Below, one piece after another: positions 9,823 to 44,904 of a DNA stretch of 64,000 bases. Position 1 is the stretch's first letter, and each line of letters begins with the position of its first letter. A program made the position numbers and the translations under genes. The notes beneath the pieces were generated by a model that was given only the letters and a program-made list of their open reading frames with translations, was not told the DNA's origin and made no database searches. The DNA is taken from assembly GCF_029962485.1 (NCBI RefSeq), contig NZ_CP073638.1:3162001-3226000 (forward strand). Reading direction: 5' to 3'. The stretch is from Burkholderia cepacia (GTDB lineage: Bacteria > Pseudomonadota > Gammaproteobacteria > Burkholderiales > Burkholderiaceae).

Positions 9823-9837
9823 AAGGTACTAACAATC

Positions 9838-12136: not shown

Positions 12137-12144
12137 GAACGGGC

Positions 12145-20683: not shown

Positions 20684-20750
20684 GACAGGGGAATACCCTG
20701 TCTTTTTTTTTCTGCCAGAAAGTATGTATGATGACCTATCTTTTGCAATA
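20684..20750 (+). promoter_or_regulatory. Regulon promoter element, copy A (hairpin/T-tract plus TGACCTA promoter)
   Basis: GACAGGG (20684-20690) and CCCTGTC (20696-20702) form a perfect 7-bp stem around GAATA, followed by a run of T's, the form of an intrinsic terminator. The core GGGAATACCC is at 20689-20698 and TGACCTA at 20732-20738, 33 bases later. By alignment with copy D the -35 would be 20723-20728 (TATGTA) and the -10 near 20746-20751 (CAATAT). The leader to the amine oxidase gene is unusually long, about 240 bases. Confidence 0.6.
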
Positions 20751-20974
20751 TTTACTAATTAAGGGCGCCGGAAAATCCATATCGACACAAGGAAATTCGG
20801 CACGTTTACAGGCAGGAATGCGAACGGGATCACCTACCTGATTCGAGGTGCGTGCCCCGGCGGCAGGTAAAGCGGAGCGCGCTCGCATCCAGTCGTCAAA
20901 TTCCGCGCGAGTGATGGTCGCGTGCCGCCGGGGCGGCCGCCGCTCGCGCCATTTGCAGGCGGTACCTACACATC

Positions 20975-22459
20975 ATGTCCAGGAAGTCATCCATCAGCGG
21001 AGCGGCCGACCTGCAGCGCAGGCAGTGGCTCAAGGTCGCGGGCGCGTCGGTCGCGGCGGGCGGGCTGGCACTCGGCGCCGCACGGGCGAAGGCCGATGCG
21101 GCGCCGGCCGTCGGCCATGACGCAGGCGTGCTCGACGTTGCAATCGTCGGCGCCGGGCTGGCCGGCCTGACGGCCGCGCGGGACCTGCGCTACGCGGGCT
21201 GCGAATCGTTCGTCGTGCTCGAGGCGCGCGATCGAGTGGGCGGCCGCACGCTGAACTACGACGTGGGCGGCGGGTATGTGACCGAGGTCGGTGGCCAGTG
21301 GATCGGCCCGGGCCAGACGGCCGTCGCCGATCTCGCCCGCGAGTTGGAAGTTGGCACGTTCCCGAGCTATTACGCGGGCAAGACGGTCATTCTCGGTGGC
21401 GACGGGCGCGCGGAGATCGACCTGCAGGGCACGTTCGGCACCGACGAAACCGTCGCGGCGAAGCTGAGCAAGTTGTCGCGCGACGTGCCGTCCGGTGCGC
21501 CGTGGACGTCGCCGAAGGCCGGTGAGCTCGACCGGCTGTCGGTCGGCGACTGGCTCGCGACGCAGGGCATCAAACCGGAAGACCGGATGGGTTGGAACTC
21601 GTCGATCTCGCTGTCGGGCGGCGTCGCGCCGGCAAAGATGGGGCTGCTGCACTTTCTGTCGATGATCAATTCCGCCGACTGCGATTACTCACAGCTCGAC
21701 TCGATCAGGCACAGCGCGCAGGAAACGCGTTTCGTCGGCGGCTCGCAGATTCTCAGCACCCGGATGGCGCAGCAACTGGGCGACAAGGTGCGGCTTTCGT
21801 CGCCGGTGCGCCGGATCGTCGGCTGGGATCGCGACGTCGTCACGTTGCAGACCGATCGCGGCACGGTGCGCGCGAAGAAGGTCGTGATGGCGCTCCACCC
21901 GGCGCTGTGCCACCAGGTGCAGTTCGACCCGCCGCTGCCCGAAGGGCGCAACGCGCTGCAGCGCGCGTGGCCGGCCCATTCGCCGGCGCGCAAGACGGCG
22001 ATGGTCTACCGCCGCCCGTTCTGGCGCGATAAGGGATTGAACGGCCACCTCTTCCAGACCGACGGGCCGATCTTCTGGGCTTACGACAATTCGCCGCCGG
22101 GCGGCGAGATCGGCGTGATCAACGCGTTCGTCCGGAATGCGCTGGTGCCGTCGGACCCGCAGGCCGCGAAGCAGATGCTCATGGATCTGTACGCGCAGGC
22201 GTGGGGCGACGACGCGCGCGCGCCGGTGTCGTACCACGACCGCGACTGGGGGCTGGCCGACCCGTGGACGCTCACGTGCATATCGGCGATCCCGCCCGGC
22301 TTCTGGAGCGCGCACGGCGAAGCACTGCGCGCGCCGTGCGGCAACCTGATCTGGTCGGGTACCGAGACCGCGAACATCTGGGCCGGCTACATGGACGGCG
22401 CCGTTCGATCGGGTCACCAAAGCGCGCTTCAGGCGCTCAATGCGTTGCGTCGTGCTTAG
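20975..22459 (+). CDS. Tat-exported flavin amine oxidase/dehydrogenase (first copy)
   Basis: A 494-residue flavin monoamine oxidase-family protein. The N-terminus has a twin-arginine signal (Arg15-Arg16 in LQRRQWLK, then VAGASVAAGGLALGAARA), so it is exported folded to the periplasm. The Rossmann dinucleotide motif GAGLAG is at 59-64, then VLEARDRVGGRT and the C-terminal FAD segment GTETANIWAGYMDGAVRSGH. It would oxidise an amine to the imine. The gene directly downstream encodes a membrane-anchored diheme cytochrome c, which suggests electrons go to cytochrome c rather than O2, as described for NicA2 with CycN in nicotine-degrading Pseudomonas. It is paralogous to the gene at 33327. Substrate unknown. 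Confidence 0.85.
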   Translation: MSRKSSISGAADLQRRQWLKVAGASVAAGGLALGAARAKADAAPAVGHDAGVLDVAIVGAGLAGLTAARDLRYAGCESFVVLEARDRVGGRTLNYDVGGGYVTEVGGQWIGPGQTAVADLARELEVGTFPSYYAGKTVILGGDGRAEIDLQGTFGTDETVAAKLSKLSRDVPSGAPWTSPKAGELDRLSVGDWLATQGIKPEDRMGWNSSISLSGGVAPAKMGLLHFLSMINSADCDYSQLDSIRHSAQETRFVGGSQILSTRMAQQLGDKVRLSSPVRRIVGWDRDVVTLQTDRGTVRAKKVVMALHPALCHQVQFDPPLPEGRNALQRAWPAHSPARKTAMVYRRPFWRDKGLNGHLFQTDGPIFWAYDNSPPGGEIGVINAFVRNALVPSDPQAAKQMLMDLYAQAWGDDARAPVSYHDRDWGLADPWTLTCISAIPPGFWSAHGEALRAPCGNLIWSGTETANIWAGYMDGAVRSGHQSALQALNALRRA

Positions 22460-22469
22460 GAGAGCGAAG

Positions 22470-23129
22470 ATGAAGAAACGCATACTGCTGCTCGCGGCGC
22501 TCGTGGTGATCGGTGCGCTGCTGGCGTTCTATGGGCCGACGCTGCTCGGCTTTTACCGACTGCAGAACCATATCGATACGGCGGCACAAGCCGACGAGGC
22601 CGACGGCGGCCCGTGGCCGCGTGTGACCGACGCGTGCATGAACTGCCACGGCGTGAAGGGTACGTCACTCAGCCAGGCGTATCCGAGCCTCGCCGGCCAG
22701 CCGACCCAATACGTCACCGGACAGCTTCGCGCTTTCGCGAGCGGGCAACGCGCGAACCCGACGATGGGTCCGCTTGCGATGACGATGAGCGAAACCGAGA
22801 TCGCTCGTCTGGCCGAATACTATGCGAAGCAGGCGCCGGAGGATAACCGCTATTTCAAACCGGACGCGCGGCTGCGCACGAAAGGCGAGCAGCTGGTGAC
22901 GGGCGGCGCGTGTGCTGCCTGCCACGGCGCGCGGCTGACGGGGCAGGCACAGTTTCCGCGTCTCGCCGGGCAGGGCTATGACTACCTGCTCGCGCAGCTC
23001 GACGCGTTCGCGAACGGCTCGCGCAGCGAGGCGACGGGCACGATGCAGCGCGTTGCGAGAGGGATGTCGGTGGCCGATCGTGCGGCGGTCGCGACGTATC
23101 TCGCGAGCGCCAGCCCACGCAAACAGTGA
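22470..23129 (+). CDS. Membrane-anchored diheme cytochrome c (first copy)
   Basis: A 219-residue cytochrome with an uncleaved-type N-terminal helix (RILLLAALVVIGALLAFYGP) and two c-type heme sites: C56-M-N-C-H60 and C148-A-A-C-H152. Each begins a small domain with SLAGQ/RLAGQ repeats and a downstream Met (TMGPLAM, TMQRVARGM), as in the cytochrome c4/c553 type. It follows the amine oxidase by ten bases, with ribosome site aggag, so it is the likely electron acceptor. Its counterpart at 34806 has the same architecture next to the second amine oxidase. Confidence 0.85.
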   Translation: MKKRILLLAALVVIGALLAFYGPTLLGFYRLQNHIDTAAQADEADGGPWPRVTDACMNCHGVKGTSLSQAYPSLAGQPTQYVTGQLRAFASGQRANPTMGPLAMTMSETEIARLAEYYAKQAPEDNRYFKPDARLRTKGEQLVTGGACAACHGARLTGQAQFPRLAGQGYDYLLAQLDAFANGSRSEATGTMQRVARGMSVADRAAVATYLASASPRKQ

Positions 23130-23164
23130 ATCATCGAACGCAATCGACCTCGGGAGTTCTCATC

Positions 23165-23842
23165 ATGGATCACAGATCACTTGTCCTTTGTCTTTCCAGT
23201 GCGACGCTTGCGATGACGACGGGCGTTTACGGTTTGAAGTTCGTCCGCAAGCGCAATTTCCTGCTCGGCTTCGAGTGGTGGATCGTCACGATCTCCGCAA
23301 CCAACGCCCTGATCTTTTTCGCGACGGAATCCCCGGTGTCGTACGGCATCTCGCACTTTCTCGATGCATTCTCGCGAGGGTTCGGGATGCCGGTCATTGC
23401 GGTCGCGGGGCTGATGGCTGTCACTCACGGCTACCGGCCGTCGGTGCGGCAGGACGTGTTGCTGTTCGTACTCGCCGCCGCAGGCACGGTCGTGCTGGTT
23501 ACGGCCGGCTTCCTTCAACACGTGCTGCCGTATTTCTACGTGACGATGTGGACGTTGCTCTCGATCTATCTCGTCGGCTTCGTGATGCGGCTGCTGCGCG
23601 CCGGTCACGCGTTCCATGCGCTGACGACGGCGGTCGCGCTTGTCGCTTCGCTCGCGATCGCATGCATCTACGACTTCTACAAGATACCGGGCGAGGAAAC
23701 CAACGTCGTGTTCAACTTCTACGTCCTCGCATTGCTCACGTGGTCGTACTTCACGGTCGTTCTCTATTACGCGTATTGCGCGCTGGGGAAACAGAGTGGG
23801 CGAAGTCAGGCCGGGTCGGCCGTATTGTCGTATCCGAAATGA
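23165..23842 (+). CDS. Polytopic membrane protein of unknown function
   Basis: A 225-residue protein with about seven hydrophobic segments (RSLVLCLSSATLAMTTGVYG, then WWIVTISATNALIFFA and onwards to LALLTWSYFTVVLYYAYCAL). ATG 23165 is chosen because gggag precedes it; the upstream in-frame ATG at 23126 lies only in the intergenic leader. No family was recognised. Its place between the cytochrome c and a TetR gene suggests a role with the amine oxidase module, for instance as membrane partner or permease. Confidence 0.65.
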   Translation: MDHRSLVLCLSSATLAMTTGVYGLKFVRKRNFLLGFEWWIVTISATNALIFFATESPVSYGISHFLDAFSRGFGMPVIAVAGLMAVTHGYRPSVRQDVLLFVLAAAGTVVLVTAGFLQHVLPYFYVTMWTLLSIYLVGFVMRLLRAGHAFHALTTAVALVASLAIACIYDFYKIPGEETNVVFNFYVLALLTWSYFTVVLYYAYCALGKQSGRSQAGSAVLSYPK

Positions 23843-23900
23843 ATAGCTGTACTGAAAACGTGATCGAGATTCGAAAATCGTGGCTGACCGGAGACGGGGT

Positions 23901-24527
23901 ATGCCGATGGACGTACCTCGGCTGACCCGTGTGCAGCGACGGAGCGTGACGCGCGAACGCCTGATCGGTGCCGCACGCGTGATCTTCGCGGAGAAGGGGT
24001 ATGTGGCCGCGAGCGTTGAAGACATTGCGGTGGCGGCCGGGCATACACGCGGCGCGTTCTACTCGAACTTCCGCAGCAAGACGGACATGCTGTTCGAACT
24101 GCTGCGGCGCGATCACGACGAGGCTGCGGCTGCGTTGCAGCGGATTGCCAATACGCATGACTCGGCCGACGGTGCGCAGCACGCGATGCTCGCGTACTGG
24201 CGGCGGTGTACCGCGCGGCATGCGCCGCGCCTGATGTGGCTCGAAGCACAACTTCAGGCGGCGCGCGACCCGCAGTTCCGTGCGAGGTTTGGCGCGTTCC
24301 TGCGCGACCGGCAGGCGCTGGCGGTCGCCTGCATCGACGCTTACGCGGTGCGCGCCGGCGTGTCGCTGCCGTTGCCTGCACAGGTGCTGGCGCTCGGCCT
24401 GACCGCGTTGTGCGACGGCGTGCAGTCATGCAGTGCGGTCGATGCGTGGGGCACCGACGACGCGCTGGCCGACGCGGTGCTGGTCGGCTTCCTGACGCAC
24501 ACGGTGTTCGGCTGCGTGAGCAGGTGA
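23901..24527 (+). CDS. TetR-family transcriptional regulator (first)
   Basis: A 208-residue TetR repressor. The N-terminal helix-turn-helix spans ~15-60 (LIGAARVIFAEKGYVAASVE, then HTRGAFYSNFRSKTDMLFE); the rest is a helical ligand domain. Start ATG 23901 is taken over the GTG at 23880 and the ATG at 23907. It ends the first operon of the catabolic island, and the second regulon promoter lies 115 bases past its stop. It is a candidate to bind that shared promoter element. Ligand unknown. Confidence 0.85.
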   Translation: MPMDVPRLTRVQRRSVTRERLIGAARVIFAEKGYVAASVEDIAVAAGHTRGAFYSNFRSKTDMLFELLRRDHDEAAAALQRIANTHDSADGAQHAMLAYWRRCTARHAPRLMWLEAQLQAARDPQFRARFGAFLRDRQALAVACIDAYAVRAGVSLPLPAQVLALGLTALCDGVQSCSAVDAWGTDDALADAVLVGFLTHTVFGCVSR

Positions 24528-24640
24528 CGTTGCTACGAAGTGACGGTCGTGCTTCGTCGCAAGCTTGTATGAATACCGAAAGCCGATTGTCATGACGGGT
24601 CGGTGGCCCGCGCGATGCGCGTTCGATCATGCAGACGAAA

Positions 24641-24703
24641 CAGGGAATACCCCGGCTTTATCTTTTTTGTGATTTTGTCATGATGACCTAACATAGTCAT
24701 CAT
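24641..24703 (+). promoter_or_regulatory. Regulon promoter element, copy B
   Basis: Core GGGAATACCC at 24643-24652, T-rich stretch, then TGACCTA at 24684-24690, 31 bases later. Putative -35 TTGTCA at 24675-24680, 17-base spacer and a weak -10 near 24698-24703. GTCATgATGAC (24677-24687) is a perfect odd palindrome over the -35. The terminator stem seen in copies A and D is broken here while the core is kept. ATG of the dioxygenase gene is 88 bases downstream of TGACCTA. Confidence 0.6.
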
Positions 24704-24771
24704 GTTCCACTAAAGGTGCCGGCTGTGATGGATCGCCGCCGGTGGTTGTTGGACGAATCAGGAGATTGACG

Positions 24772-25605
24772 ATGGATGCAGTGACGCGGAAGGCCTTCTT
24801 TGAGAATGGGGCCGTACTTATCGAAGGGGTGCTCAACGAAGAACAACTCGCGCAATGCCGTGCAGCGTTCGACTGGGGGATGGAGAACCCAGGCCCGATG
24901 GCGTCGACACTGCTCGACGGCACTGAGTACAAGTCGCACAACGACAACGCGAATCCGTATGCGAAGGCACGGCTCGACGAACTCGTCGGCACGCTCCCGT
25001 TCGGGCAGTTGTTCGCCGATCTTTGGGGCTCGAAGCACGTGTGGTACTTCGCGGAAGAGCTGTTCATGAAGGGCGGCGGCAAGAGCGCGCGTTCGCCGTG
25101 GCACCAGGACACGTCGTACCTGCCGTGGCAAGGGATGCACTTCGGCAATGCGTGGATCAGCTTCGAGGGCGTGCCGAAGCGCAATGCGCTGGAGATCGTG
25201 CGCGGCTCGCATCGCGGCGTACGCCACGACGGCACCACGTTCCAGAACGCCGAGGATCCGACCGACCCGTTGCACGGCGGCGACGTGTGGCCGCGCCTGC
25301 CGAACATCGAAGCCGAGCGCCGCGCGACGCCGGATGCGTACGACATCCTGTCCTGGGAAACCAAGCCGGGCGACGTGCTGCTGCTCCATCCGGGCGTGCT
25401 GCACGGTGGCGGCGCGGTCGATGCGGCGTTCCCCGATCGCCATACGCTCGTGCTGCGCTTCTTCGGCGACGACGCAGTGTTCAGTCCGCTGCCCGACGAA
25501 AGCCGCTCGGGCTTCACGCCGGCCGGCGTGCTGTTCGTCGAGGAACTCGCCGGGCTGAAGGCTGGCGATCCGTTCCGCGCGCCGTGTTTCCGTCAACTAG
25601 TCTGA
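24772..25605 (+). CDS. Phytanoyl-CoA dioxygenase (PhyH) family oxygenase
   Basis: A 277-residue Fe(II)/2-oxoglutarate-dependent oxygenase. The metal triad is H111-x-D113 (SPWHQDTSYLPW) and His211 (PGVLHGGGAVD); the Arg-rich segment PDRHTLVLRFFGDD would bind 2-oxoglutarate. The start at 24772 has ggaga in front. It would hydroxylate an unactivated carbon of the substrate. It heads the second transcription unit, followed by a RidA protein after 17 bases. Substrates of this family range from acyl-CoAs to free acids and amines, so the name should not be taken literally. Confidence 0.8.
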   Translation: MDAVTRKAFFENGAVLIEGVLNEEQLAQCRAAFDWGMENPGPMASTLLDGTEYKSHNDNANPYAKARLDELVGTLPFGQLFADLWGSKHVWYFAEELFMKGGGKSARSPWHQDTSYLPWQGMHFGNAWISFEGVPKRNALEIVRGSHRGVRHDGTTFQNAEDPTDPLHGGDVWPRLPNIEAERRATPDAYDILSWETKPGDVLLLHPGVLHGGGAVDAAFPDRHTLVLRFFGDDAVFSPLPDESRSGFTPAGVLFVEELAGLKAGDPFRAPCFRQLV

Positions 25606-25622
25606 GCAGGGAGACTTTCATC

Positions 25623-26036
25623 ATGACAGCAACCCCGAAGCGGCAATCGATTGTTCCGTCCGCGTTCCAGCCCTGGTACGAAGCGTACCACTTCTCGCCG
25701 GCGACACGCGTGGGCGACCTGATCTGGGTCTCGGGCCAGGTCGGCCTCGACGCGCAGATGAAGCCGGCCGACGGCGTACAGGCGCAGGCACGGATCGCGT
25801 TCGAGTGCCTGAAGATGATCCTCGAGGAGGCCGGTGCGAGTCTCGCCGACGTCGTCGAGCTCACGACCTTCCACACGGATCTGCAGAGCGAGACCGAGGG
25901 TTTCGCGGCAGTCAAGGACGCGTATTTCCCGAACCGCTATCCATCGTGGACCGCGGTCGGCGTCACGCAGCTGGCGTTGCCGGGACTGTGCGTCGAGATT
26001 CGCGCGGTGGCGGTAGCAGGTTCGGGCAAGGACTGA
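25623..26036 (+). CDS. RidA/YjgF-family enamine/imine deaminase
   Basis: A 137-residue RidA-type protein: LIWVSGQVGLDAQ, EAGASLADVVELTTFHTDLQ, and the terminal PGLCVEIRAVAVAGS containing the Arg of the substrate site. Family members form trimers and hydrolyse enamines and imines to carbonyl plus ammonia. Downstream of amine oxidases this fits removal of the imine product, although the oxidases are periplasmic and this protein is cytoplasmic. It starts 17 bases after the dioxygenase stop. Confidence 0.85.
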   Translation: MTATPKRQSIVPSAFQPWYEAYHFSPATRVGDLIWVSGQVGLDAQMKPADGVQAQARIAFECLKMILEEAGASLADVVELTTFHTDLQSETEGFAAVKDAYFPNRYPSWTAVGVTQLALPGLCVEIRAVAVAGSGKD

Positions 26037-26263
26037 CGGCGGTAGCGGCGGATTTCCGGAGGGACTCGCGTTCTACATGAATCGCAGTCCTGAATGAAAG
26101 ATGAAAGCGAATCACCGAAAGCAATGCGATCGGCAGGCGGCCGGCCGGAACCCGGTCGGCTGCGATCAGGGAGCGACGCAGTCGTCGGCTGACGAAGGCG
26201 ATCGAAGCAAACGCGTTTCGCCCACAACGGGCGAGCGAAGGCGGAGTGGGAAGGAGAACCGTG

Positions 26264-27628
26264 ATGAAGAAGCATCGTTTCTGGGCTGTGTCCGCGATCG
26301 CGGCAGCAGCATGTGTCGCGATCGGCACCGCCGTCGCGGCGGACGACCTGACGCCGGCCGGCGCCGACCGTGCCGCGAGCAAGGACGGCACGGTGCCGGC
26401 CTATGCGGGCAAGCAGCCGCCCGATGCAGGTTGGGAGTGGGGCAAGGTGCGCGGCGATTTCTGGAAGCATCGCAACGAGAAGCCGCTTTATTCGATCGAT
26501 GCGGCCAACGTTGACAAGTACGCGGACAAGCTGTCGCCTGGCCAGGTCGCACTGATCAAGCAGAAGAAGGGCTACAGGATGGATGTCTATCCGTCCCATC
26601 GCGAATGCCAGTTGCCGGACGTCGCCGAGCAGAACTCGAAGGCGAACCTCACCGCCGCCAAGCTGGATTCGACCGGCGAGAACCTCGCATCGGCCGTGTT
26701 GCCGGGCGTGCCGTTCCCGCAACCGAAGAACGGCGTCGAAGCGATCCTGAACTACGAGATGCGCTATCGCGGCGTAGGTGTCGACTGGGCGCAGGTCGCC
26801 ACGGCCATTTCGCCGCGGCCGGGCAGCAGCGAATGGATCGATGCCGTCGGACCGCAGACCCTTTACTTCCCGTCCGCGAAACTCGGCAAGAGCTCACCGC
26901 AGGACGTCGACCAACTGAGCATGGCCGTCTACTTCCAGATGAACTCGCCCGCCGCGCTGGCCGGGCAGGCTTTCGTCCAGCGGCAGTACTTCAACAAGGA
27001 TTCGGAAACCTACTACTACTTCCCGGGCCAGCGGCGCGTGCGACGCATGCCGGCTTATACGCACGATGCGCCGTTGATCGGGTTCGAGAACCAGTACCTG
27101 ATCGACGAGGGGAACATGTTCAACGGCTCGCTCGACCGATTCAACTGGAAGCTGGTCGGCAAGAAGGAAATGATCGTTCCGTACAACGCGTTCGGCATGT
27201 ACAAGTTCAAGAGCAAGCTGCACGATGTCGCGACACCCGACGGCCTTGCTGCCGCGAACCGTCGCTACGAGACGCACCGCGTGTGGGTCGTCGAGGCGAC
27301 CCTCAAGCCGAGCGCACGTCATGTCGCGTCGAAGAAGGTGTTCTATCTCGATGAGGACAGCTGGCTCGCGCTCGTCGGCGAGGACTACGACGCGCAGGGC
27401 AAGTTGTGGAAGGTACGGGAAAGCTACCCGATTCCCGTGTGGGAAATCGGCGGCACCTGCGACAACGAGCCGCTCGCGCAGTACGACATGATCAACGGCC
27501 GCTACGTGTTCGACGCGTCGTCCATCGGTCAGGGCAAGGATATCCGCTGGCTCGAGCAGCCGGACGACCCGCGCTTCAAGTCCGATTTCTACTCGGCGGA
27601 ATCGCTGCGCTCCGTAAGCGAGCGTTGA
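26264..27628 (+). CDS. DUF1329 outer-membrane lipoprotein-sorting-like protein
   Basis: A 454-residue exported protein (signal peptide residues 1-26, ending TAVAAD). Features typical of DUF1329 proteins are LTPAGADRAASKDGTVPAYA near the N-terminus, an ETYYYFPGQRRVRRMPAY motif and a LolA-like half-barrel pattern. It is conserved next to DUF1302, RND and YCF48 proteins in degraders of hydrophobic compounds, where it is thought to take part in transport across the envelope. ATG 26264 is preferred (ggaaggag in front) over GTG 26246. A 227-base gap precedes it, without an obvious promoter. Confidence 0.85.
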   Translation: MKKHRFWAVSAIAAAACVAIGTAVAADDLTPAGADRAASKDGTVPAYAGKQPPDAGWEWGKVRGDFWKHRNEKPLYSIDAANVDKYADKLSPGQVALIKQKKGYRMDVYPSHRECQLPDVAEQNSKANLTAAKLDSTGENLASAVLPGVPFPQPKNGVEAILNYEMRYRGVGVDWAQVATAISPRPGSSEWIDAVGPQTLYFPSAKLGKSSPQDVDQLSMAVYFQMNSPAALAGQAFVQRQYFNKDSETYYYFPGQRRVRRMPAYTHDAPLIGFENQYLIDEGNMFNGSLDRFNWKLVGKKEMIVPYNAFGMYKFKSKLHDVATPDGLAAANRRYETHRVWVVEATLKPSARHVASKKVFYLDEDSWLALVGEDYDAQGKLWKVRESYPIPVWEIGGTCDNEPLAQYDMINGRYVFDASSIGQGKDIRWLEQPDDPRFKSDFYSAESLRSVSER

Positions 27629-27654
27629 CGGGAGTCAACTGACGAACACAAGGA

Positions 27655-27675
27655 CCGGCGCGCGCGACGCGCCGG
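27655..27675 (+). promoter_or_regulatory. GC-only hairpin between DUF1329 and DUF1302 genes
   Basis: CCGGCGCG (27655-27662) and CGCGCCGG (27668-27675) pair perfectly around a 5-base loop. No T-tract follows. It may adjust expression between the two cistrons or protect mRNA ends. Confidence 0.4.
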
Positions 27676-27699
27676 CATTGAACAGGGGAGGAGCGGATC

Positions 27700-29547: not shown

Positions 29548-29609
29548 CGACGGCGGGATCGCGGGCGGCGTGCGTCGCGCGTCGCCGCAACACATGAGGG
29601 AGTAAGGTC

Positions 29610-31970: not shown

Positions 31971-32001
31971 AGCTTGTGATCATCCTGACGGAGATTCGAT
32001 C

Positions 32002-32283
32002 ATGGTCAAGACGTTAGCTGTTTGCGCCGCACTTTGCATCGCGGCGGCAGCCTTCCCTCGATTTCGTGAAGCGGCCGCGGGCCCGGCCGCGACGGCTCAT
32101 GCGTTCGCGAACGACGCAAGACGCGTCGGTGTGCGCAACACCGCGGTCGACGGAGCGGGCGTCGCACCGTCATCGAACGACGGCAACGCCGAACGGCAGG
32201 CGGCGGTGCCGGGTGCGGGCAGGCCGCCGATCGTTGTGCTCGGCGTAGCGCATGCCGGCTGGTCGGATCTGTTCAACCACTGA
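32002..32283 (+). CDS. Small exported protein resembling the 5' end of the next gene
   Basis: A 93-residue frame with signal peptide MVKTLAVCAALCIAAAAFPR, nearly the same as MIKTLVACAALCAVAAAFAQ of the next gene. The mature part (Ala/Gly/Val-rich) has no recognisable domain. The ribosome site is a modest cggag. It probably arose from duplication of the start of the YCF48 gene followed by divergence. Whether it is expressed is doubtful. Confidence 0.5.
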   Translation: MVKTLAVCAALCIAAAAFPRFREAAAGPAATAHAFANDARRVGVRNTAVDGAGVAPSSNDGNAERQAAVPGAGRPPIVVLGVAHAGWSDLFNH

Positions 32284-32313
32284 TGCCCGCGCACACCACT
32301 ACAGAGACTCACC

Positions 32314-33282: not shown

Positions 33283-33326
33283 GTCGAAACAGCTTCAGAT
33301 AAACAAGGAAGGATGGAGCACTTGAA

Positions 33327-34805: not shown

Positions 34806-35486
34806 ATGAAACGAACCTGGATGATCGGCGCCGCGCTTGTGGTGGCGGGCGTGGTTGCCGCAGGCGTGCACTACGGGCCTGACCTCGTCGATGGCATGCG
34901 TTACCAGAAGGCGATGACCGCGATCGGTGATGCGGACAAGGCCAACGGCGGCGCGTGGCCGCAGCCGCAGGAGACGTGCTTCTTCTGCCACGGTGTGCAT
35001 GGCCAGGCGCAGAACGCGTGGTATCCATCGCTGTCCGGGCAGCCGGCCACATATATCGCTGCACAACTGCGCGCGTTCGCGACCGACCAGCGCCGCAACG
35101 CGTATATGGGGCCGCTCGCGCGCGAACTCGACGACGCGAAGATCGATGCGCTGGCGACCTATTTCGCGCGGCAGGCGCCGGCGCGCAACGAAGCCGTGGC
35201 GGCCGACGCCGCGCTCGACACGCGCGGAAGGGCGCTGGTCGAGGCCAGAAGCTGCCAGGCCTGTCATGGCGCGGCGCTGACAGGCAAGGATCAGGCGCCG
35301 CGTCTCGCGGGCCAGGGGCAGCTTTACCTGGAAGCGCAGCTCGCGGTGTTCCGGTCGGGCGAGCGGCACGACCCGACGGGTGCGATGAATGCATTGGCTG
35401 CGACGTTGTCGGTCGACGATACGCGCGCCGTTGCGCACTACCTGGCCGGCCTGTCGCCGGACAGTGCCGGCGGTGCGGCCCGATGA
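34806..35486 (+). CDS. Membrane-anchored diheme cytochrome c (second copy)
   Basis: A 226-residue protein with an N-terminal anchor (WMIGAALVVAGVVAAGVHYG) and two heme sites, C58-F-F-C-H62 and C150-Q-A-C-H154. Its layout matches the cytochrome at 22470 closely. The start codon abuts the amine oxidase stop codon, indicating coupled translation. It should carry electrons from the periplasmic oxidase toward the terminal oxidase. The gene ends the transcription unit; the next regulon promoter begins about 20 bases downstream. Confidence 0.88.
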   Translation: MKRTWMIGAALVVAGVVAAGVHYGPDLVDGMRYQKAMTAIGDADKANGGAWPQPQETCFFCHGVHGQAQNAWYPSLSGQPATYIAAQLRAFATDQRRNAYMGPLARELDDAKIDALATYFARQAPARNEAVAADAALDTRGRALVEARSCQACHGAALTGKDQAPRLAGQGQLYLEAQLAVFRSGERHDPTGAMNALAATLSVDDTRAVAHYLAGLSPDSAGGAAR

Positions 35487-35500
35487 TGCGCGTAGGGAGT

Positions 35501-35570
35501 CAGGGCCGGGAATACCCTGCCTTTTTCTGCGCGTCTATTTTTGGCATAGTGACCTATGATTGTTAGTGTT
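35501..35570 (+). promoter_or_regulatory. Regulon promoter element, copy C
   Basis: Core GGGAATACCC at 35508-35517, T-run, then TGACCTA at 35550-35556, 32 bases later. Putative -35 TTGGCA at 35541-35546, 17-base spacer, -10 TAGTGT at 35564-35569. The flanks can pair as GGC-x-GGG with CCC-x-GCC, so a weaker terminator-like stem remains. The downstream gene starts 110 bases from TGACCTA. Confidence 0.62.
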
Positions 35571-35659
35571 TTCTATAAAGAAACGCCCCCGATGTGAAGC
35601 GGCAGTACCCGACGTTCGACTCAACCGATTTTTGACAACTTACGTTTCAGGAGACAACC

Positions 35660-36790
35660 ATGGCTAAGCACCCCGTCGTCGTTTATGGCGCAAGCGGTTA
35701 CACCGGCATGTTGATCATGGACTGGCTGATCGACCAGAACATCCCGTTCACGGCGGTCGCACGCAACGCGGGCCGCGCGAAGGAAATGATGGCGCAGCGC
35801 GTCGTGCGCCTCGAATCCGCGGAATACGAAATCATCGAGGCGGAGCACACCGTCGATGCGCTCGTGAAGGCGTTTCGCGGTGCGAAGGTGGTGTGCAATA
35901 CCGTCGGGCCGTTCTCGAGCTTCGGGCTCGTCGGCGTCGAGGCTGCACTGAAGGCCGGCTGCCATCACCTCGATACGACCGGCGAACAGTCGTATATCCG
36001 CGACGTGCGCGACCAGTTCGGCGAGCAGTACCGGCAGGCCGGCCTGCTGGTGTCGTCGTCGAACGCGTATATGTACACGTTTGCCGAGATCGCCGCGGAG
36101 CTCGCGCTCGAGACGCCGGGCATCGATGCGCTGGAGACGGCCACGCTGACGCGCGGTCCGCGCGGCACTGCCGGCGTCAGCATCGGTTCGGCAGCGACGA
36201 TTTTCGACGGCGCGCGCCACGAAGCCTGCTACCTGTGGGAGAAGGCGCTCGTCCCGCACGCGCCGGACGCGTCGTTCACCGTCGCGACGCCCGAACTCAT
36301 GCAGCCGGTGTTCTGCCTGCCGTGGGGCGGCACGTCGCTGCCCGTCTACTTCGAGCGCGATCCGCGTGTGCGCAGCTGCATCTCGTGCGTGGGCTTCTAC
36401 GACAACAACGTGATGAAGCTGGTGCACCAGTTCGGGCAGAAGTGGGAAGCCGAGTACAAGCACCTGCCGCGCGAACAGCAGGACGCGGTGCTGAAGCAGG
36501 CGGTCAATTCGACCACGCCGACGATGCCGCCGCGCGAACGCACGACGATCCAGCGCAGCGTCGACGTCGCGATCGGCCGCGGCCAGCTCGCGTCGGTGCG
36601 TGCGACCGTGCACGGCATCACGCCGTACATCTCGACGGGCGCGATTCATGCCGCCGGCGTGCTCAAGCTGCTCGACGGCGACGTGGCTCGCACGGGTTTC
36701 GCGTCGGGCTCGAAGGCATTCGGGCATCGCTACCTGCTCGGTTTCCTCGAACAGCGCGGGCTCGCGCGCGCCACGGTCACGCAACTGTGA
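35660..36790 (+). CDS. Saccharopine-dehydrogenase-like NAD(P)-binding oxidoreductase
   Basis: A 376-residue protein with an N-terminal Rossmann domain (VVVYGASGYTGMLIMDWL, residues 6-23) and the arrangement of saccharopine dehydrogenase-like/trans-acting enoyl reductase proteins (VVCNTVGPFSSFGLVGVEAA). Good ribosome site (caggaga). Members reduce C=N or C=C bonds or oxidise secondary amines; here it heads an operon with acyl-CoA ligase and thiolase. Whether it acts on an amine, imine or acyl chain cannot be told from the sequence. Confidence 0.75.
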   Translation: MAKHPVVVYGASGYTGMLIMDWLIDQNIPFTAVARNAGRAKEMMAQRVVRLESAEYEIIEAEHTVDALVKAFRGAKVVCNTVGPFSSFGLVGVEAALKAGCHHLDTTGEQSYIRDVRDQFGEQYRQAGLLVSSSNAYMYTFAEIAAELALETPGIDALETATLTRGPRGTAGVSIGSAATIFDGARHEACYLWEKALVPHAPDASFTVATPELMQPVFCLPWGGTSLPVYFERDPRVRSCISCVGFYDNNVMKLVHQFGQKWEAEYKHLPREQQDAVLKQAVNSTTPTMPPRERTTIQRSVDVAIGRGQLASVRATVHGITPYISTGAIHAAGVLKLLDGDVARTGFASGSKAFGHRYLLGFLEQRGLARATVTQL

Positions 36791-36832
36791 CGGGCGCGGC
36801 GTTACCGGACCAGACTCAACGGAACATGTGAC

Positions 36833-38386
36833 ATGGCCATTATCGATTTCTACGACCGCGGGTGGCGCCTCAATCCCGACGGCATCGCTTATATCCAGGA
36901 CGAACGCAGCTACACGTTCCAGGAGATCGGCGAGCTGTCGTGCCGCATCGCCAACGGGCTGCTTGCCGCCGGCTTCGCGAAGGAGGCGAAGGCGGCGGTG
37001 TGGGCGGACAACGACGTGATCGGCTGGAGCTGCGCGCTCGGGATGTGGCGCGCCGGGCTCGCGTATATCCCGGTGAACGGGCGCAACGCGGTGGCCGAGA
37101 ACCAGTACGCGCTCGATGCGTTCGACTGCGAAGTGCTGTTCTTCCATCAGGCGTTCGCGCCCGTGATCGACGCACTGCGGCCGAGCCTGCCGAAGATCCG
37201 GCTGTGGGTGTGCCTCGACGCCGACCTGCCGTGGGCGCCGTCGCTGGCCACCTGGAGCGGGTGCCAGCCGGCGACGCTGCCGGCCGTCGAATACGCGATG
37301 GACGACGTCGTCGCGTTGTCGGCCACGGGCGGCACGACCGGCGCGCCGAAGGGCGTGATGAACACGCACCGTTCGCTGCAGACGTACTTCGCACAGTTCA
37401 TGATCGCGATGACGTACGGCGACGCGCGCCCGGTGAATCTCGCTGCGGCGCCAATGACGCACACCGCCGGCATGATGTCGCTGCCGTGTACCGCGCGCGG
37501 CGGCACGGTGGTGGTGCTGCCGAAGCCCGATCCCGCGCTGCTGCTCGGCGCGATCGTGAAGCATCGCGTGACCGAGTTCTTCCTGCCGCCGACGGTGATC
37601 TACCGTCTGCTCGACATCCCGGGCATCGACAAGGTCGATTTCTCGTCGCTGCGTTACTTCCTGTATGGCGCCGCGCCGATGTCGGTCGAGAAGCTCAAGC
37701 GCGCGATCGACGTGTTCGGCCCGGTGATGACGGGCGGCTACGGACAGACCGAAGCGCCCGCGTCGATCTCGTACCTGACGCCTGCCGAGCACTTCGTCGA
37801 TGGCCGGCTCGCATCGGACGAGCGGCTGTCGTCGGTCGGCCGCCCGAATCCGCTGGTGCGCGTCGAGATCATCAACGATCGCGGCGAGGTGCTGAAGCAG
37901 GGCGAGACTGGCGAGATCTGCGTGCGCGGCGATATCGTGATGAAGGGGTACTACCGCGCGCCGGACAAGACGGCCGAGACGATCGTCGATGGCTGGCTGC
38001 ACACCGGCGACATCGGTCATCTCGATACGGAAGGCTACCTGCACATCACCGATCGCAAGAAGGACATGATCATCAGCGGCGGCTTCAACGTCTATCCGAG
38101 CGAGGTCGAGCAGGTGATCTGGGCGCATCCGGCCGTACAGGATTGCGCGGTGATCGGCGTGCCCGACGACACGTGGGGCGAGGCCGTGAAGGCCGTCGTC
38201 GAGCTGAATGCCGGCCAGCAGGTCAGCGCGGAGGAACTCGTCGCGCTGTGCAAGGAGAAGCTCGGCTCGGTGAAGGCGCCGAAGAGCGTGGACTTCGTCG
38301 CCGCACTGCCGCGCAGCACGGCCGGCAAGGTGCTGAAGAAGGACCTGCGCGAACAGTACTGGCATGGCCAGCAACGCAGGATCTGA
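36833..38386 (+). CDS. AMP-dependent acyl-CoA synthetase/ligase
   Basis: A 517-residue ANL-superfamily ligase. Motifs are the phosphate loop SATGGTTGAPKGVMNTHRSL (residues 163-182), GGYGQTEAPASISYL, HTGDIGHLDTEGYL, the hinge ITDRKKDMIISGGFNVYPSE and the C-terminal catalytic lysine in PRSTAGKVLKKDLR. It would activate a carboxylic acid with ATP and CoA for the dehydrogenase and thiolase steps encoded nearby. The chain length or ring preference cannot be assigned. It follows the preceding gene by 42 bases. Confidence 0.88.
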   Translation: MAIIDFYDRGWRLNPDGIAYIQDERSYTFQEIGELSCRIANGLLAAGFAKEAKAAVWADNDVIGWSCALGMWRAGLAYIPVNGRNAVAENQYALDAFDCEVLFFHQAFAPVIDALRPSLPKIRLWVCLDADLPWAPSLATWSGCQPATLPAVEYAMDDVVALSATGGTTGAPKGVMNTHRSLQTYFAQFMIAMTYGDARPVNLAAAPMTHTAGMMSLPCTARGGTVVVLPKPDPALLLGAIVKHRVTEFFLPPTVIYRLLDIPGIDKVDFSSLRYFLYGAAPMSVEKLKRAIDVFGPVMTGGYGQTEAPASISYLTPAEHFVDGRLASDERLSSVGRPNPLVRVEIINDRGEVLKQGETGEICVRGDIVMKGYYRAPDKTAETIVDGWLHTGDIGHLDTEGYLHITDRKKDMIISGGFNVYPSEVEQVIWAHPAVQDCAVIGVPDDTWGEAVKAVVELNAGQQVSAEELVALCKEKLGSVKAPKSVDFVAALPRSTAGKVLKKDLREQYWHGQQRRI

Positions 38387-38411
38387 ACCCGATTCATATG
38401 GATTCCATACG

Positions 38412-39653
38412 ATGAGCAACATCTACATCGCCGGCATTGCGATGACCGTGTTCGGCCGGCACCTCGACCGTAGTCTCGACGACCTGGCGCGCGAGGCGCT
38501 GCAGCGTGCGTTGCGTGACGCCGGCTGCCATGCCGATGCGATCCGCGCCGCGTTCTATTCGGGCATCACCAACGGCGCGTTGCAGGGGCAACTGTCGATT
38601 CCAGGTCAGGTCCTATTCAGCAAGATCGGCCTTGAAGGCATTCCGGTGTTCAACGTCGAGAATGCGTGTGCGTCCGGTAGTACGGCCGTGCACCTGGCAG
38701 TGCGGCAGCTTCAGTCGGGCGCGTGCGATGTTGCGCTCGCGCTCGGCGCGGAAAAGATGAACGTCGCGGACAAGGCGAAATCCTTCGCGCTGTTCGAGGG
38801 GGGCTGGGACGTGTCGCGGGTCGACGAGAACTTCGCGACGCTCGCGCGGCTCGGCGAAGGGATCGAGCCGCCGCCCGGCTCGGAATCCGACCGCCCGTAC
38901 AGCCGCTTCATGAAGATCTACGCGGCGCTGTGCCGGCATCACATGCACACGTACGGCACGACGCAGCGGCAGATCGCCGCCGTGTCGGCGAAGAATCACG
39001 GGCATTCGGTGCACAACCCGTATTCGCAGTTCCGCCAGCCGTTCACGGTCGACGAGGTGCTCGCGGCGGCGCCGATCACGTACCCGATCACGCTGCCGAT
39101 GTGCGCGCCGCTGTCGGACGGCGCGGCAGCCGCGATCCTGTGCACGGAGGAGGGGCTGGAGCGTATCGGCGCCGATCGCAGCCGCTGCATCCGGATCGCC
39201 GCGAGCGTGCTGCGCAGCTTCACGCGACGGCGCGCCGACGAGCCGCACAAGCACATCGGCCGGCTCGCTGCGCTGCAGGCTTACGAGCAGGCCGGCGTGG
39301 GACCGGAGGACATGGACGTCGCCGAAGTGCACGACGCGTCGGCGATGGGCGAAATCATCCAGGCCGAGAACCTCGGTTTCGTGCCGTTCGGCGAAGGCGG
39401 CCCGGCAGCCGAGCGCGGCGAGTTCACGCTCGGCGGGCGCATCCCGATCAACACGTCGGGCGGCCTCGAATCCAAGGGCCATCCGCTCGGCGCGACCGGC
39501 ATCGGGCAGCTGTACGAACTGGTCACGCAGTTGCGTGGCGAGGCGGGTGCGCGGCAGGTGGACGGTGCGCGACATGCGATCCAGGAGAACGGAGGCGGCT
39601 TGCAGGGCGTCGAGGAAGCGGCGCTGGCGATTCACATTCTCAGTCGGGACTGA
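38412..39653 (+). CDS. Thiolase family protein (SCP2-thiolase-like)
   Basis: A 413-residue thiolase. The nucleophile Cys86 is in NVENACASGSTAVHLAV; the C-terminal active site is altered from the classical CxG, with the His site in SGGLESKGHPLGATGIGQLY and the tail HAIQENGGGLQGVEEAALA. These traits are those of the SCP2/lipid-transfer thiolase group that cleaves branched or ring-derived 3-ketoacyl-CoAs. ATG 38412 is preferred over 38364, which lies inside the ligase gene. A decayed fragment of a similar thiolase is found near 48545. Confidence 0.85.
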   Translation: MSNIYIAGIAMTVFGRHLDRSLDDLAREALQRALRDAGCHADAIRAAFYSGITNGALQGQLSIPGQVLFSKIGLEGIPVFNVENACASGSTAVHLAVRQLQSGACDVALALGAEKMNVADKAKSFALFEGGWDVSRVDENFATLARLGEGIEPPPGSESDRPYSRFMKIYAALCRHHMHTYGTTQRQIAAVSAKNHGHSVHNPYSQFRQPFTVDEVLAAAPITYPITLPMCAPLSDGAAAAILCTEEGLERIGADRSRCIRIAASVLRSFTRRRADEPHKHIGRLAALQAYEQAGVGPEDMDVAEVHDASAMGEIIQAENLGFVPFGEGGPAAERGEFTLGGRIPINTSGGLESKGHPLGATGIGQLYELVTQLRGEAGARQVDGARHAIQENGGGLQGVEEAALAIHILSRD

Positions 39654-39664
39654 CGGAGGCGGAC

Positions 39665-41140
39665 ATGAGCGACGCACATGGCGCGATAGTGCTCGGGCAG
39701 GCAGGACAGGCGGCGCGGCAAGCGTCGCACGGCGTCGGCGCGGCGGCGTCGATGCAGGCAGTGGGGGCCGACGCGACCGGACCGCTGGCGCGCTGGGGCG
39801 AGGAAATCCGCGCCGATGCCGCGTTGCAGAAGTATCGACCCGTCGGCGGATGGATCGAGCCGCCGGATCATGCACAGCCGTCGCTCGAGGGCGACGTCCG
39901 CGCCGACGTGATCGTCGTCGGCGCGGGTTTCGCCGGCTTGTCCACCGCGCTTGAGCTGGCGGCGCGCGGCGCGAGCGTCGTCGTGCTCGAACGCGAGTTC
40001 GCGGGCTTCGGCGCGAGCGGGCGTAACGCCGGTTATCTCGCCGGCGGCCAGGGGCTCGAGTACGAGCTGTTCCTCAAGCGTGTCGGGCACGAACAGGCGA
40101 AGCAGATCGTCGGGTTCTACGACGAAGGCGTGGCCTACGTCGAGCGCAAGCTCGCCGAATACGCGATCGACTGCGACTACCGCGCGTCGGGCATCATCCG
40201 CGCGGGCGTGCATCCGTCGCAAGAGAAGCGGTTGCGCGAGAGCATGAAAACCGGCATCGAACTCGGCTCGCCCGCGCAGTTTCTCGATGGCGCGGCGATG
40301 CGCGAACGCGGGATTCCGCCGGCTTTCCTGTTCGGCGCGTACGTACCGGGCGGCGGCACGCTCGATCCCGGCAAGTACGTGACGGGGTTGCGGCGCGCGG
40401 CGCTCGCGGCCGGCGTGAAGCTCTACGAGAACACCGCGCTGCTCGATTTCGACGAAGGCGAGACGGTGCGCGTGCGCACCGCACGTGGCAGCGCGAGTGC
40501 GCCGGTGCTGGTGCTGGCCACCAACGCATACACGCCGCAGCTCGGCCTGCTCGGCGACAAAGTGATGCCGTTGCGCGTGTCGGCGCTCGAAACCGAGCCG
40601 CTGTCCGATGCGCAGCTTGCTGCGCTCGGCTGGCCGAATCGCGAGGGCATCGTTACGTCGCACCTGACGATGGAGAGCCATCGCCTCACCGCGCGCAACA
40701 CGCTGCTGCTGACGACCAAGCGGCTTCATTACGTCTACGGCTCGCAGACGCCGAACGTCCCGGATGACGACGCGTATCGTTCGCTCGTGAAGGCGCTGTA
40801 CGCGCGCTTTCCGCAACTGGGCAACGTGCCGGTGCGCGCGTGCTGGTCCGGCTATATCTCGTTCGCCGGCGACGCGCTACCGGTGGTCGGTGCAGCCGGC
40901 GCGCACAAAAACGTGTTTTATACGGCCGGCTGCTCGGGGCATGGCGTGGGCACGCAGTCGCTGATCGGGCGTGTGCTGGCCGAACGGATCGAGGGCGGGC
41001 ACTCGCCGCTGCTTGACGCGCTGACGCACAAGACGCCGTCGGCGCCGCCGGAGCCGTTGCGATGGTGCACGATCAATGCGATGCTCGGCGTCGCGAACCT
41101 GCTCGACGAGCGCGTGAACCGCCAGGCGCGGCAGATGTAG
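39665..41140 (+). CDS. FAD-dependent oxidoreductase, DAO family
   Basis: A 491-residue D-amino-acid-oxidase-type flavoenzyme. A ~75-residue N-terminal extension is followed by VIVVGAGFAGLSTALELAAR (dinucleotide fold), EREFAGFGASGRNAGYLAGG and the C-terminal FAD segment YTAGCSGHGVGTQSLIG. It resembles gamma-glutamylputrescine oxidase/PuuB-type and sarcosine oxidase-type enzymes, and has a relative in the window at 55150. Such enzymes oxidise secondary or primary amines in the cytoplasm with FAD. It begins 12 bases after the thiolase stop (ribosome site cggaggcgg). Confidence 0.82.
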   Translation: MSDAHGAIVLGQAGQAARQASHGVGAAASMQAVGADATGPLARWGEEIRADAALQKYRPVGGWIEPPDHAQPSLEGDVRADVIVVGAGFAGLSTALELAARGASVVVLEREFAGFGASGRNAGYLAGGQGLEYELFLKRVGHEQAKQIVGFYDEGVAYVERKLAEYAIDCDYRASGIIRAGVHPSQEKRLRESMKTGIELGSPAQFLDGAAMRERGIPPAFLFGAYVPGGGTLDPGKYVTGLRRAALAAGVKLYENTALLDFDEGETVRVRTARGSASAPVLVLATNAYTPQLGLLGDKVMPLRVSALETEPLSDAQLAALGWPNREGIVTSHLTMESHRLTARNTLLLTTKRLHYVYGSQTPNVPDDDAYRSLVKALYARFPQLGNVPVRACWSGYISFAGDALPVVGAAGAHKNVFYTAGCSGHGVGTQSLIGRVLAERIEGGHSPLLDALTHKTPSAPPEPLRWCTINAMLGVANLLDERVNRQARQM

Positions 41141-41244
41141 CGTCGCACGCGATCGTCACGACGTTGAAACGTGCATCCGGCCGGACTGTCCAGTCGACGG
41201 GTGGTTCGATGGAAAACGAGGCTCGCATAAGGTATAGTCGTTTG

Positions 41245-41265
41245 CGCTCCGTAAGGTACGGAGCG
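41245..41265. promoter_or_regulatory. Perfect palindrome ahead of the second TetR gene (operator candidate)
   Basis: CGCTCCGTA (41245-41253) and TACGGAGCG (41257-41265) are perfect 9-bp inverted arms around a 3-base centre, 43 bases before the TetR start codon. Such a site is typical for TetR autoregulation. The same word is not visible in the four regulon promoter elements. Confidence 0.65.
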
Positions 41266-41307
41266 TCAATTCAACGAAGCCGAAACGCCACTTTTACGAC
41301 GAACACG

Positions 41308-41985
41308 ATGACAGTGCCCAACGAGCAGCGCAGCGGTAAAAAGCGGCGCACTTCGACTGCAGCCCCCGCAGCAGCAAGCAACCCGGACGGTTTGCGAGCG
41401 CAAGGCCTGCGCACCCGCAACACGATTATTCGCGTCGCGCGGAAGCTGCTGCTGGAAAACGGCCCGCTGGAATTCTCGCAACGCGCGGTGGCAGCGGCCG
41501 CAGGGATCAGCGTCAGCAATCTGCAGTACTACTTCCCGACCCGGATCGCCGTATTGCGGGCCGTCATCGAGCCGGTTATCGACACCTATCTCAAAGACAT
41601 GAAGCGCGCGATCAGCACCGACGCGTCGCCGCGCGACGTGTTCGAGGAGATATTGGTGCGCTCGATCTCCGATGCGAAAGATGCCAAGTACAATGCGTTG
41701 TTCCGACACTTTCTGTCGTTCTCGGCGACCGATCCCGAGTGCTTCAAGCTTTACGACGAATGGTATGAGACGCTCACGCGCGATCTCGCGCAGTTGCTGC
41801 GCACCGTCAATCCTGCGTTCAGTGCGGCCGACAGCCGACACGCAGCGACGATGCTGATCGCGCTGGCGGACGGCCTCGCGATGCAGTACGGCGCAGGGCG
41901 GCATACGCATGCGCTCGACGCGTATTTCACGGCGACGTCGCGCGCGATCGCATACGGTACGCTGACCGTGCCCGCTGGCAAATAA
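41308..41985 (+). CDS. TetR-family transcriptional regulator (second)
   Basis: A 225-residue TetR regulator. A charged N-terminal tail (EQRSGKKRRTSTAAPAAASN) precedes the helix-turn-helix (RNTIIRVARKLLLENGPLEF, then AAAAGISVSNLQYYFPTRIA). The ligand domain is TetR_C-like with the pattern of AcnR/RutR-type regulators. A perfect palindrome 43 bases upstream is a probable self-operator. It is followed by regulon promoter copy D. The in-frame upstream region to 41062 lacks coding character, so ATG 41308 is chosen. Confidence 0.85.
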   Translation: MTVPNEQRSGKKRRTSTAAPAAASNPDGLRAQGLRTRNTIIRVARKLLLENGPLEFSQRAVAAAAGISVSNLQYYFPTRIAVLRAVIEPVIDTYLKDMKRAISTDASPRDVFEEILVRSISDAKDAKYNALFRHFLSFSATDPECFKLYDEWYETLTRDLAQLLRTVNPAFSAADSRHAATMLIALADGLAMQYGAGRHTHALDAYFTATSRAIAYGTLTVPAGK

Positions 41986-42015
41986 CGACGGCCTTCACAG
42001 TCGCAGTACCGAAAG

Positions 42016-42084
42016 AGACAGGGGAATACCCTGTCTTTTTTTTGCTTCCATCATTTGTCATGATGACCTATCTTATGTATGTAT
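42016..42084 (+). promoter_or_regulatory. Regulon promoter element, copy D
   Basis: GACAGGG (42017-42023) and CCCTGTC (42029-42035) pair perfectly around GAATA and are followed by a T-run: an intrinsic-terminator shape right after the TetR gene. Core GGGAATACCC at 42022-42031; TGACCTA at 42064-42070, 32 bases later. Putative -35 TTGTCA (42055-42060), spacer 17, -10 TATGTA (42078-42083). GTCATgATGAC (42057-42067) is an odd palindrome over the -35. The next gene starts 92 bases from TGACCTA. Confidence 0.65.
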
Positions 42085-42155
42085 TACTAGATACGAGATG
42101 GCCGGGTGCAGTTGCTGCCTGGTCCACATGACTGGAGTCCAGGAGGAGAACGGAG

Positions 42156-44805: not shown

Positions 44806-44904
44806 CGATTCAGAAGATAAATTTCAAGAAGACTCCGTGAATCGCTATGCTCAATGCTTTTGTTCCAGCTTGTTTGGGTACCGAAAGATTCGTATAGAGA
44901 GAAA

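Follow-up and report, generated by a model that had tools for sequence, protein, structure and literature searches.

The catabolic cluster and its four copies of the element

The window analysed here is a stretch of 64,000 nucleotides from Burkholderia cepacia (assembly GCF_029962485.1, contig NZ_CP073638.1, positions 3,162,001 to 3,226,000 of the forward strand). It contains a catabolic gene cluster of four transcription units, A to D, each preceded by a copy of one DNA element that is made up of a GGG-W4-CCC box, a T-run, and two tandem 17-bp units (Table 1). Judging from the sequence, these are most likely four operons of one catabolic cluster that are switched off by a repressor encoded in the cluster itself, the TetR-family protein TetR2. 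PDB and family-library searches gave enzyme classes for the cluster proteins and no substrate.

Table 1. Coordinates of the element copies and transcription units in the window
Feature	Position	Strand	Description
Copy A, upstream block	20684..20711	+	Hairpin GACAGGG-GAATA-CCCTGTC at 20684-20702, then a T-run; box GGGAATACCC at 20689-20698
Copy A, first 17-bp unit	20722..20738	+	Ends in TGACCTA; spans the -35 TATGTA (20723-20728)
Copy A, second 17-bp unit	20741..20757	+	Spans the -10 CAATAT (20746-20751)
Unit A	20975..24527	+	FAD amine oxidase (twin-arginine signal by eye), cytochrome c with two haem domains, membrane protein without Pfam match, TetR1
Copy B, box	24643..24652	+	GGGAATACCC, without stable hairpin
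Copy B, 17-bp units	24674..24709	+	24674-24690 and 24693-24709; -35 TTGTCA (24675-24680); -10 CATCAT (24698-24703)
Unit B	24772..35486	+	PhyH dioxygenase, RidA, DUF1329, DUF1302, MMPL/RND, YCF48-like, second amine oxidase, second cytochrome c
Copy C, box	35508..35517	+	GGGAATACCC, imperfect hairpin
Copy C, 17-bp units	35540..35575	+	35540-35556 and 35559-35575; -35 TTGGCA (35541-35546); -10 TAGTGT (35564-35569)
Unit C	35660..41985	+	DUF5938/saccharopine-dehydrogenase-like, acyl-CoA synthetase, thiolase-like, DAO-type FAD oxidase, TetR2
TetR2	41308..41985	+	BetI-like TetR regulator, proposed reader of the tandem units
Copy D, upstream block	42017..42043	+	Hairpin GACAGGG-GAATA-CCCTGTC at 42017-42035, then a T-run; box GGGAATACCC at 42022-42031; ~30 nt past the TetR2 stop, relatives arranged alike
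Copy D, 17-bp units	42054..42089	+	42054-42070 and 42073-42089; -35 TTGTCA (42055-42060); -10 TATGTA (42078-42083)
Unit D	42156..43445	+	Acyl-CoA dehydrogenase

In the four copies, TGACCTA starts at 20732, 24684, 35550, and 42064, and the gap between GGGAATACCC and TGACCTA is 33, 31, 32, and 32 bases in A to D. The four copies lie exactly where the first-pass annotation had placed them, and the near-constant spacing that it described (31–33 bases) is found in all of them.

The pattern of GGGAATACCC followed by TGACCTA occurs four times in the window and in none of 100 dinucleotide shuffles. In the whole 7.7 Mb genome, the pattern with a gap of 29–35 bases has exactly four matches and the reversed control has none. 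A 77-position model of the entire element detects the same four copies, with E values between 1e-14 and 1e-16, and no other match at E<=10, while a 41-position model of the right part finds the same four at E<=1 and no further match in the genome. Both model searches score the best 150 first-look candidates per genome (in this genome, of 315 and 533, respectively). The decamer GGGAATACCC by itself is unremarkable, with 10 genome-wide copies against eight of the reversed decamer, and its role as a genome-wide site was rejected: the remaining six exact copies have no T-run or tandem units downstream. Among 398 sampled family genomes (this genome included), 38 have one to four copies of the pattern, with the reversed control at 0 in every row. 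In a Cupriavidus locus (L040:7020-7295), two complete elements stand back to back within one intergenic region.

Architecture and age of the element

The anatomy of the element is based on 80 distinct strict sites and on a relaxed set of 113 sites, reduced to 62 by dropping those at least 85% alike. The box comes first, followed by the T-run and then by the two tandem units at a 19 bp period. The box is GGGAATACCC in 98 of the 113 relaxed sites; the other versions include GGGATTACCC, GGGATAACCC, GGGAATTCCC, and GGGTAATCCC, as well as single sites with a C (GGGACTACCC) or a G (GGGGAAACCC). The box-to-TGACCTA distance is 30–33 in every one of the 113 sites (27–36 being permitted). The first unit reads TTTGTCATnATGACCTA and, two bases later, the second reads wTTGGyAnnrTGTwCTA. 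The direct repeat scores 4.86 at offset 19, the top value among offsets 8–29 (runner-up 0.74), and column shuffles score -0.12 ± 0.85, with 0 of 5000 attaining 4.86. The element thus contains a single 17-bp sequence twice, with TGACCTA forming the right half of its first occurrence. The element had been described as bipartite, which does not hold, because a second 17-bp unit comes after the first and the element has more than two parts.

A palindromic operator was also considered, but the palindromic symmetry of the region is not significant, being equalled by 185 of 2000 column shuffles. The odd palindrome GTCATgATGAC that the first-pass annotation had pointed out is present in copies B and D but is not a conserved feature, as opposed to the direct repeat. 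In Pseudoduganella (L240:6690-6780), there are apparently three 17-bp units rather than two before an acyl-CoA dehydrogenase gene (by eye), and in a Trinickia locus (L151) the second unit likewise ends in TGACCTA.

In 10 of 19 four-copy Burkholderia genomes, each of the 40 sites has as its nearest foreign copy the one at the same position. Between positions in one genome, identity is 82% in the box and T-run block and 68% in the tandem block, compared with 27% in the spacer and 28–30% in the flanks; when the 17 positions fixed by the search are left out, about 71% and 61% remain in the two blocks. Because the copies match by position throughout and their spacer and flanks are near chance, they are old rather than recently duplicated, and they appear to be held by selection.

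A predicted sigma-70 promoter within the tandem units

A TTGnnn-like -35 lies inside the first unit and a TAnnnT-like -10 inside the second, with 17 bp between them, as expected of a sigma-70 promoter with its two hexamers 16–18 bp apart. Of the 62 Burkholderiaceae sites, 46 have both A2 and T6 of the -10, and so do 10 of the 13 hand-located outgroup sites. Reading TGACC as the -35 and TWCTA as the -10 gives A2 and T6 in only 1 of 62 and 0 of 13 sites, and this assignment was rejected on these -10 statistics. The earlier placement of TGACCTA in the 17-bp spacer of a -35/-10 pair therefore stands, except that the -35 of copy A is TATGTA and not TTGTCA or TTGGCA. The tandem units extend from the -35 to roughly the predicted start, an arrangement that would suit a repressor. 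The centre of the box would lie at about -62 to -65 relative to the predicted start, as derived from the gaps; a class I activator site calls for a protein site near -61 to -72 together with a known binder.

TetR2 as the candidate regulator

A regulator with a TetR DNA-binding domain is encoded in the cluster, TetR_N and TetR_C_6 being found in 41062-41985. In the 18 motif genomes whose surroundings were examined, the element always belongs to this pathway's cluster, whose gene order takes several forms, and the remaining 19 motif genomes besides this one all have the DUF5938 protein used as the cluster marker. TetR2 relatives (E<=1e-25) are found in 42 of 80 chosen genomes, comprising all 38 with the strict motif and four marker genomes with a variant element (G184, G270, G393, and G394). 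They were detected in none of the six marker-bearing genomes without the motif and in none of the 32 controls, a chosen subset of the cluster-less genomes, with at most 36 candidates scored per genome. The sequence SNLQYYFPTR in the DNA-binding domain is invariant across 18 TetR2 proteins. The tandem model applied to 10 cluster-less genomes gives no match at E<=1 in nine and a weak one (0.4) in G002.

A scan of one genome per species, which reaches only proteins with one of two peptide patterns, gave 59 loci with TetR2 relatives, or 58 after one at 24% identity was dropped. Tandem units lie 63–145 bp beyond the TetR2 stop in 34 of these 58 loci, with scores of 9.2–31.4 bits. Judged by their titles, the 58 loci represent 44 assemblies, and 42 of these have units at one or more TetR2 loci, counting L238 at 9.3 bits. 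The exceptions are a B. stagnalis assembly with two strict elements farther off (G353) and a Janthinobacterium contig that ends 230 bases past TetR2. In two loci, TetR2 stands with an intact (L047:5914-7658) or decayed (L146:7400-8314) element directly upstream of an electron-transfer-flavoprotein-like gene (by eye), which suggests that TetR2 and the element move together. Beside a third Pandoraea TetR2 (L135:3700-4200), there are three TAGGTCA-like sequences spaced by ~22 bp; CGACCT-N11-AGGTCG lies close by, and GGGAATACCC was not seen.

The association extends to the outgroups. A model trained only on the 62 Burkholderiaceae sites and compared with 60 shuffles per locus beats all 60 in 7 of 10 Oxalobacteraceae and Ralstonia loci. 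Six of the nine Oxalobacteraceae loci are positive (Duganella, two Massilia, Rugamonas, Janthinobacterium lividum, and Pseudoduganella), and L236, L242, and L244 are negative. In Ralstonia (L224), both the units and the box are present. Comamonas odontotermitis has a 36% identical TetR2, with tandem units in the intergenic region shared with a divergent LysR-like gene (by eye). The match of 17.1 bits (E 7e-5 for the locus) is the sole strong one there, the best of 60 shuffles reaching 5.3, and a tblastn search of this locus with 18 cluster proteins detected TetR2 alone. This pairing of TetR2 and tandem units is, in our view, the best evidence that TetR2 reads the units. The spread outside the family rests on the peptide-pattern scan, since 369 class and 349 order genomes, with eight candidates scored per genome, gave no TetR2 match at E<=1e-30 beyond this genome itself.

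The first-pass annotation had proposed binding tests with both TetR proteins of the cluster, but they are not equal candidates. TetR2 (41308) tracks the element, whereas no close relative of TetR1 (23901) was seen in the examined Cupriavidus, Pandoraea, and Trinickia clusters, and TetR1 is unlikely to be the common regulator. No other regulator common to all clusters was recognised by eye in the gene calls, where some clusters have others, and no family search was made.

The upstream block: terminator and possible further role

The first-pass annotation had described a terminator-like hairpin with a T-run in copies A and D, and folding bears this out. The hairpins of A (-13.4 kcal/mol, z -3.9) and D (-15.8 kcal/mol, z -5.1) are strong and followed by a T-run, so that both copies have the stable GC stem and T-run of an intrinsic terminator. 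The fold is weaker in C (-11.1 kcal/mol, z -1.5), and B has no stable hairpin (-3.8 kcal/mol, z 0.1). A simple terminator scan picks A and not D, and its totals are not above those of shuffles (9 vs 11.1; 3 vs 3.5). A terminator-like hairpin follows TetR2 in 40 of the 58 TetR2 loci. In Oxalobacteraceae, a GACAGG/CCTGTC-type stem with varied loops is found after TetR2 in six of nine loci (L232, L233, L236, L237, L238, and L240). Neither GGGAATACCC beside the units of TetR2 relatives in Oxalobacteraceae and one Comamonas nor GGG-N4-CCC before the units in the Oxalobacteraceae loci tested was found; L238 has GGAAATACC at that place. In L236, L237, and L238 (Janthinobacterium and Rugamonas), GAAATACC follows the terminator at about 6720-6780 and may be a relative of the box that stands on its own.

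In Burkholderiaceae and Ralstonia, the box core is A/T-rich wherever units come next. Six Burkholderia loci (L208, L209, L211, L213, L214, and L216) have no tandem unit within 450 bp behind TetR2 and retain the stem with a G/C-bearing loop (CATG or CCGT types); being closely related, these loci amount to few events. The box is retained before divergent genes in L042, L043, L044, L046, and L127, the outer stem being poor in the first four and good in L127 (by eye). Because no transcript needs ending before divergent genes, the Burkholderiaceae box core probably has a further role at the DNA level that is tied to the promoter. Two Caballeronia loci (L220 and L229) count against such a role, since they have an A/T-rich GGGAAATTCCC hairpin after TetR2 but no tandem units were seen there. 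The terminator role and the promoter-linked role are partly separable. A more specific proposal, which we consider doubtful though possible, is that in Burkholderiaceae the loop and inner stem of a terminator became a fixed DNA site: the GGG-W4-CCC decamer would end one transcript as RNA and help to start the next as DNA, as an upstream activator site or a contact site for the RNA polymerase alpha subunit, with the tandem TetR operators gating the start.

Comparison with known systems

Of the described systems found, the one that comes nearest is MbdR of Azoarcus sp. CIB, a TetR repressor of the mbd 3-methylbenzoate cluster (PMC4424350). It acts on several promoters of its cluster, including its own, through operators that overlap the -10 and/or -35 of sigma-70 promoters (PMC4424350). 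The system described here resembles it in having a cluster-encoded TetR protein, several promoters of one betaproteobacterial catabolic cluster including that of the regulator, and a pathway with CoA intermediates. The two differ in that the MbdR operator is the palindrome ATACN10GTAT, whereas here there are two tandem 17-bp units with little symmetry. The MbdR passages mention no upstream GGG-W4-CCC box, which this cluster has. MbdR is also a described repressor, while repression by TetR2 and its inducer are predictions. By analogy, TetR2 probably works like MbdR, with membership claimed in the TetR family and no further.

TetR2 has TetR_N and a BetI-type C-terminal domain, and BetI is its best NCBIfam match; however, its 37.7 bits fall far below the cut-off of 201.3 for membership, and its gene context is different. 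The hairpin resembles an intrinsic terminator in its GC stem, short loop, and T-run soon after the TetR2 stop. It differs from an ordinary one in that, in Burkholderiaceae, the loop and inner stem form GGG-(A/T)4-CCC at a near-constant distance from the promoter behind it, even where there is no stable hairpin.

Judged by titles, the literature found for GGGAATACCC contains nothing that concerns a bacterial promoter. For DUF1302 with DUF1329, one paper found deals with a monoterpene RND transporter (PMC6394551) and another with a Zoogloea genome; neither is about this system. The combined gene set was not found in the literature searched, and the search for tandem operators gave only a review.

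Proposed mechanism and alternative explanations

From the computed anatomy of the element, its repeat, its conservation, its co-occurrence with TetR2, and its terminator fold, we infer TetR2 binding, repression, an inducer, start sites, and a second role for the box. Each copy would be a sigma-70 promoter with two tandem 17-bp operators lying over its -35 and -10, the same predicted operator thus overlapping several promoters of the cluster. TetR2 would read these operators and block RNA polymerase at all four promoters, including that of its own gene through unit C, until a pathway intermediate, perhaps an acyl-CoA, releases it. The upstream GGG-W4-CCC and T-run at A and D would end the preceding transcript, which at D is that of the TetR2 operon, and the box core some 62–65 bp before the predicted start would be kept in Burkholderiaceae for its further role. 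We give this model as a whole a probability of about 0.72. The shared control of the four units suggested earlier is supported.

Several observations weigh against this model. TetR dimers usually read palindromes, and the 17-bp units are weakly palindromic at best. A consensus promoter scan detects copy B only, with totals no higher than those of shuffles. The stretch examined has no tandem units in 16 TetR2 loci out of 58; for 14 of them, the same assembly has units at a different TetR2 locus, and the remaining two (L231 and L236) cover less than 270 bases past the stop. In Pandoraea, L135 carries a TetR2 but lacks a standard element. Conversely, tandem sequence occurs without an adjacent TetR2, strongly in G263:C16 (E 1e-6) and more weakly in G286 (0.0015), G390 (0.3), and G240 (a trace). 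The last three are decayed remnants (9.3–19.2 bits), and G263:C16 has a TetR2 paralogue some kilobases off, beside a decayed element. Finally, the co-occurrence counts share ancestry.

Three alternatives have been considered. If GGGAATACCC (GGG-W4-CCC) were itself the TetR2 operator, with the tandem units read by another regulator, the presence of the box, within Burkholderiaceae, in all 42 TetR2 genomes among the 80 (38 strict and four variant) would be explained, as would its not being detected in the stretches examined from six cluster genomes without TetR2; in G286 and G390, which lack TetR2, tandem-unit remnants are left and the box is gone. However, seven of the nine Oxalobacteraceae loci (six by the model) and Comamonas retain units near TetR2 that are not preceded by a GGG-N4-CCC box (by the model L232, L233, L237, L238, L240, L241, and L246). 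A site ~60 bp before the start also suits an activator more than a repressor. This assignment of the operator is unlikely. We consider it quite unlikely, too, that the upstream block is a terminator only and that the likeness between its copies has no further meaning. The strong stems and T-runs of A and D, the same stem with other loops in Oxalobacteraceae, and the Caballeronia hairpins without tandem units would fit such a reading, but copy B keeps the box in the absence of a hairpin, and the distance from the box to TGACCTA hardly varies. The box is also kept before divergent genes, though L127 and some other divergent copies keep a good stem.

A promoter for an alternative sigma factor, with TGACCTA as its -35 and TWCTA as its -10, is very improbable. 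The spacing from TGACCTA (itself fixed by the search) to the CTA at +23 to +25 is indeed constant (79, 77, and 80 of 80 sites), but each of these two boxes is the right half of a 17-bp unit of the tandem repeat, and a rightly spaced sigma-70 -10 is present in most sites, as described above. No sigma gene was recognised by eye in the gene calls, which is a weak test. Repression by TetR2 from the tandem units remains the reading that we prefer.

Neighbouring genes

Elsewhere in the window, a LuxR-type response regulator is divergent from a hybrid kinase with an Hpt domain (14547-18737), and this pair is likely unrelated to the element. A fimbrial-looking gene set (by eye) lies beside the pair at 7564-13458. 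The open frame at 44821-45192 groups with a short-chain-dehydrogenase-like gene near the Pandoraea cluster and is perhaps a remnant, in a blast clustering dominated by antisense frames.

Significance

The system is ordinary in kind, and its unusual feature is the fusion of a terminator core and a promoter box. A TetR2/tandem-unit system was not found described in the literature searched, nor was the pathway, which has two pairs of amine oxidase and cytochrome c, RidA, a set for membrane export, and CoA steps. This pathway now has a candidate regulator with probable operators and a closed regulon of four promoters. With the regulator and the likely operators named, the inducer and the substrate can be sought with a simple reporter. 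The element would also provide a case of a terminator and a promoter-linked site sharing the same bases, where related lineages keep the terminator only.

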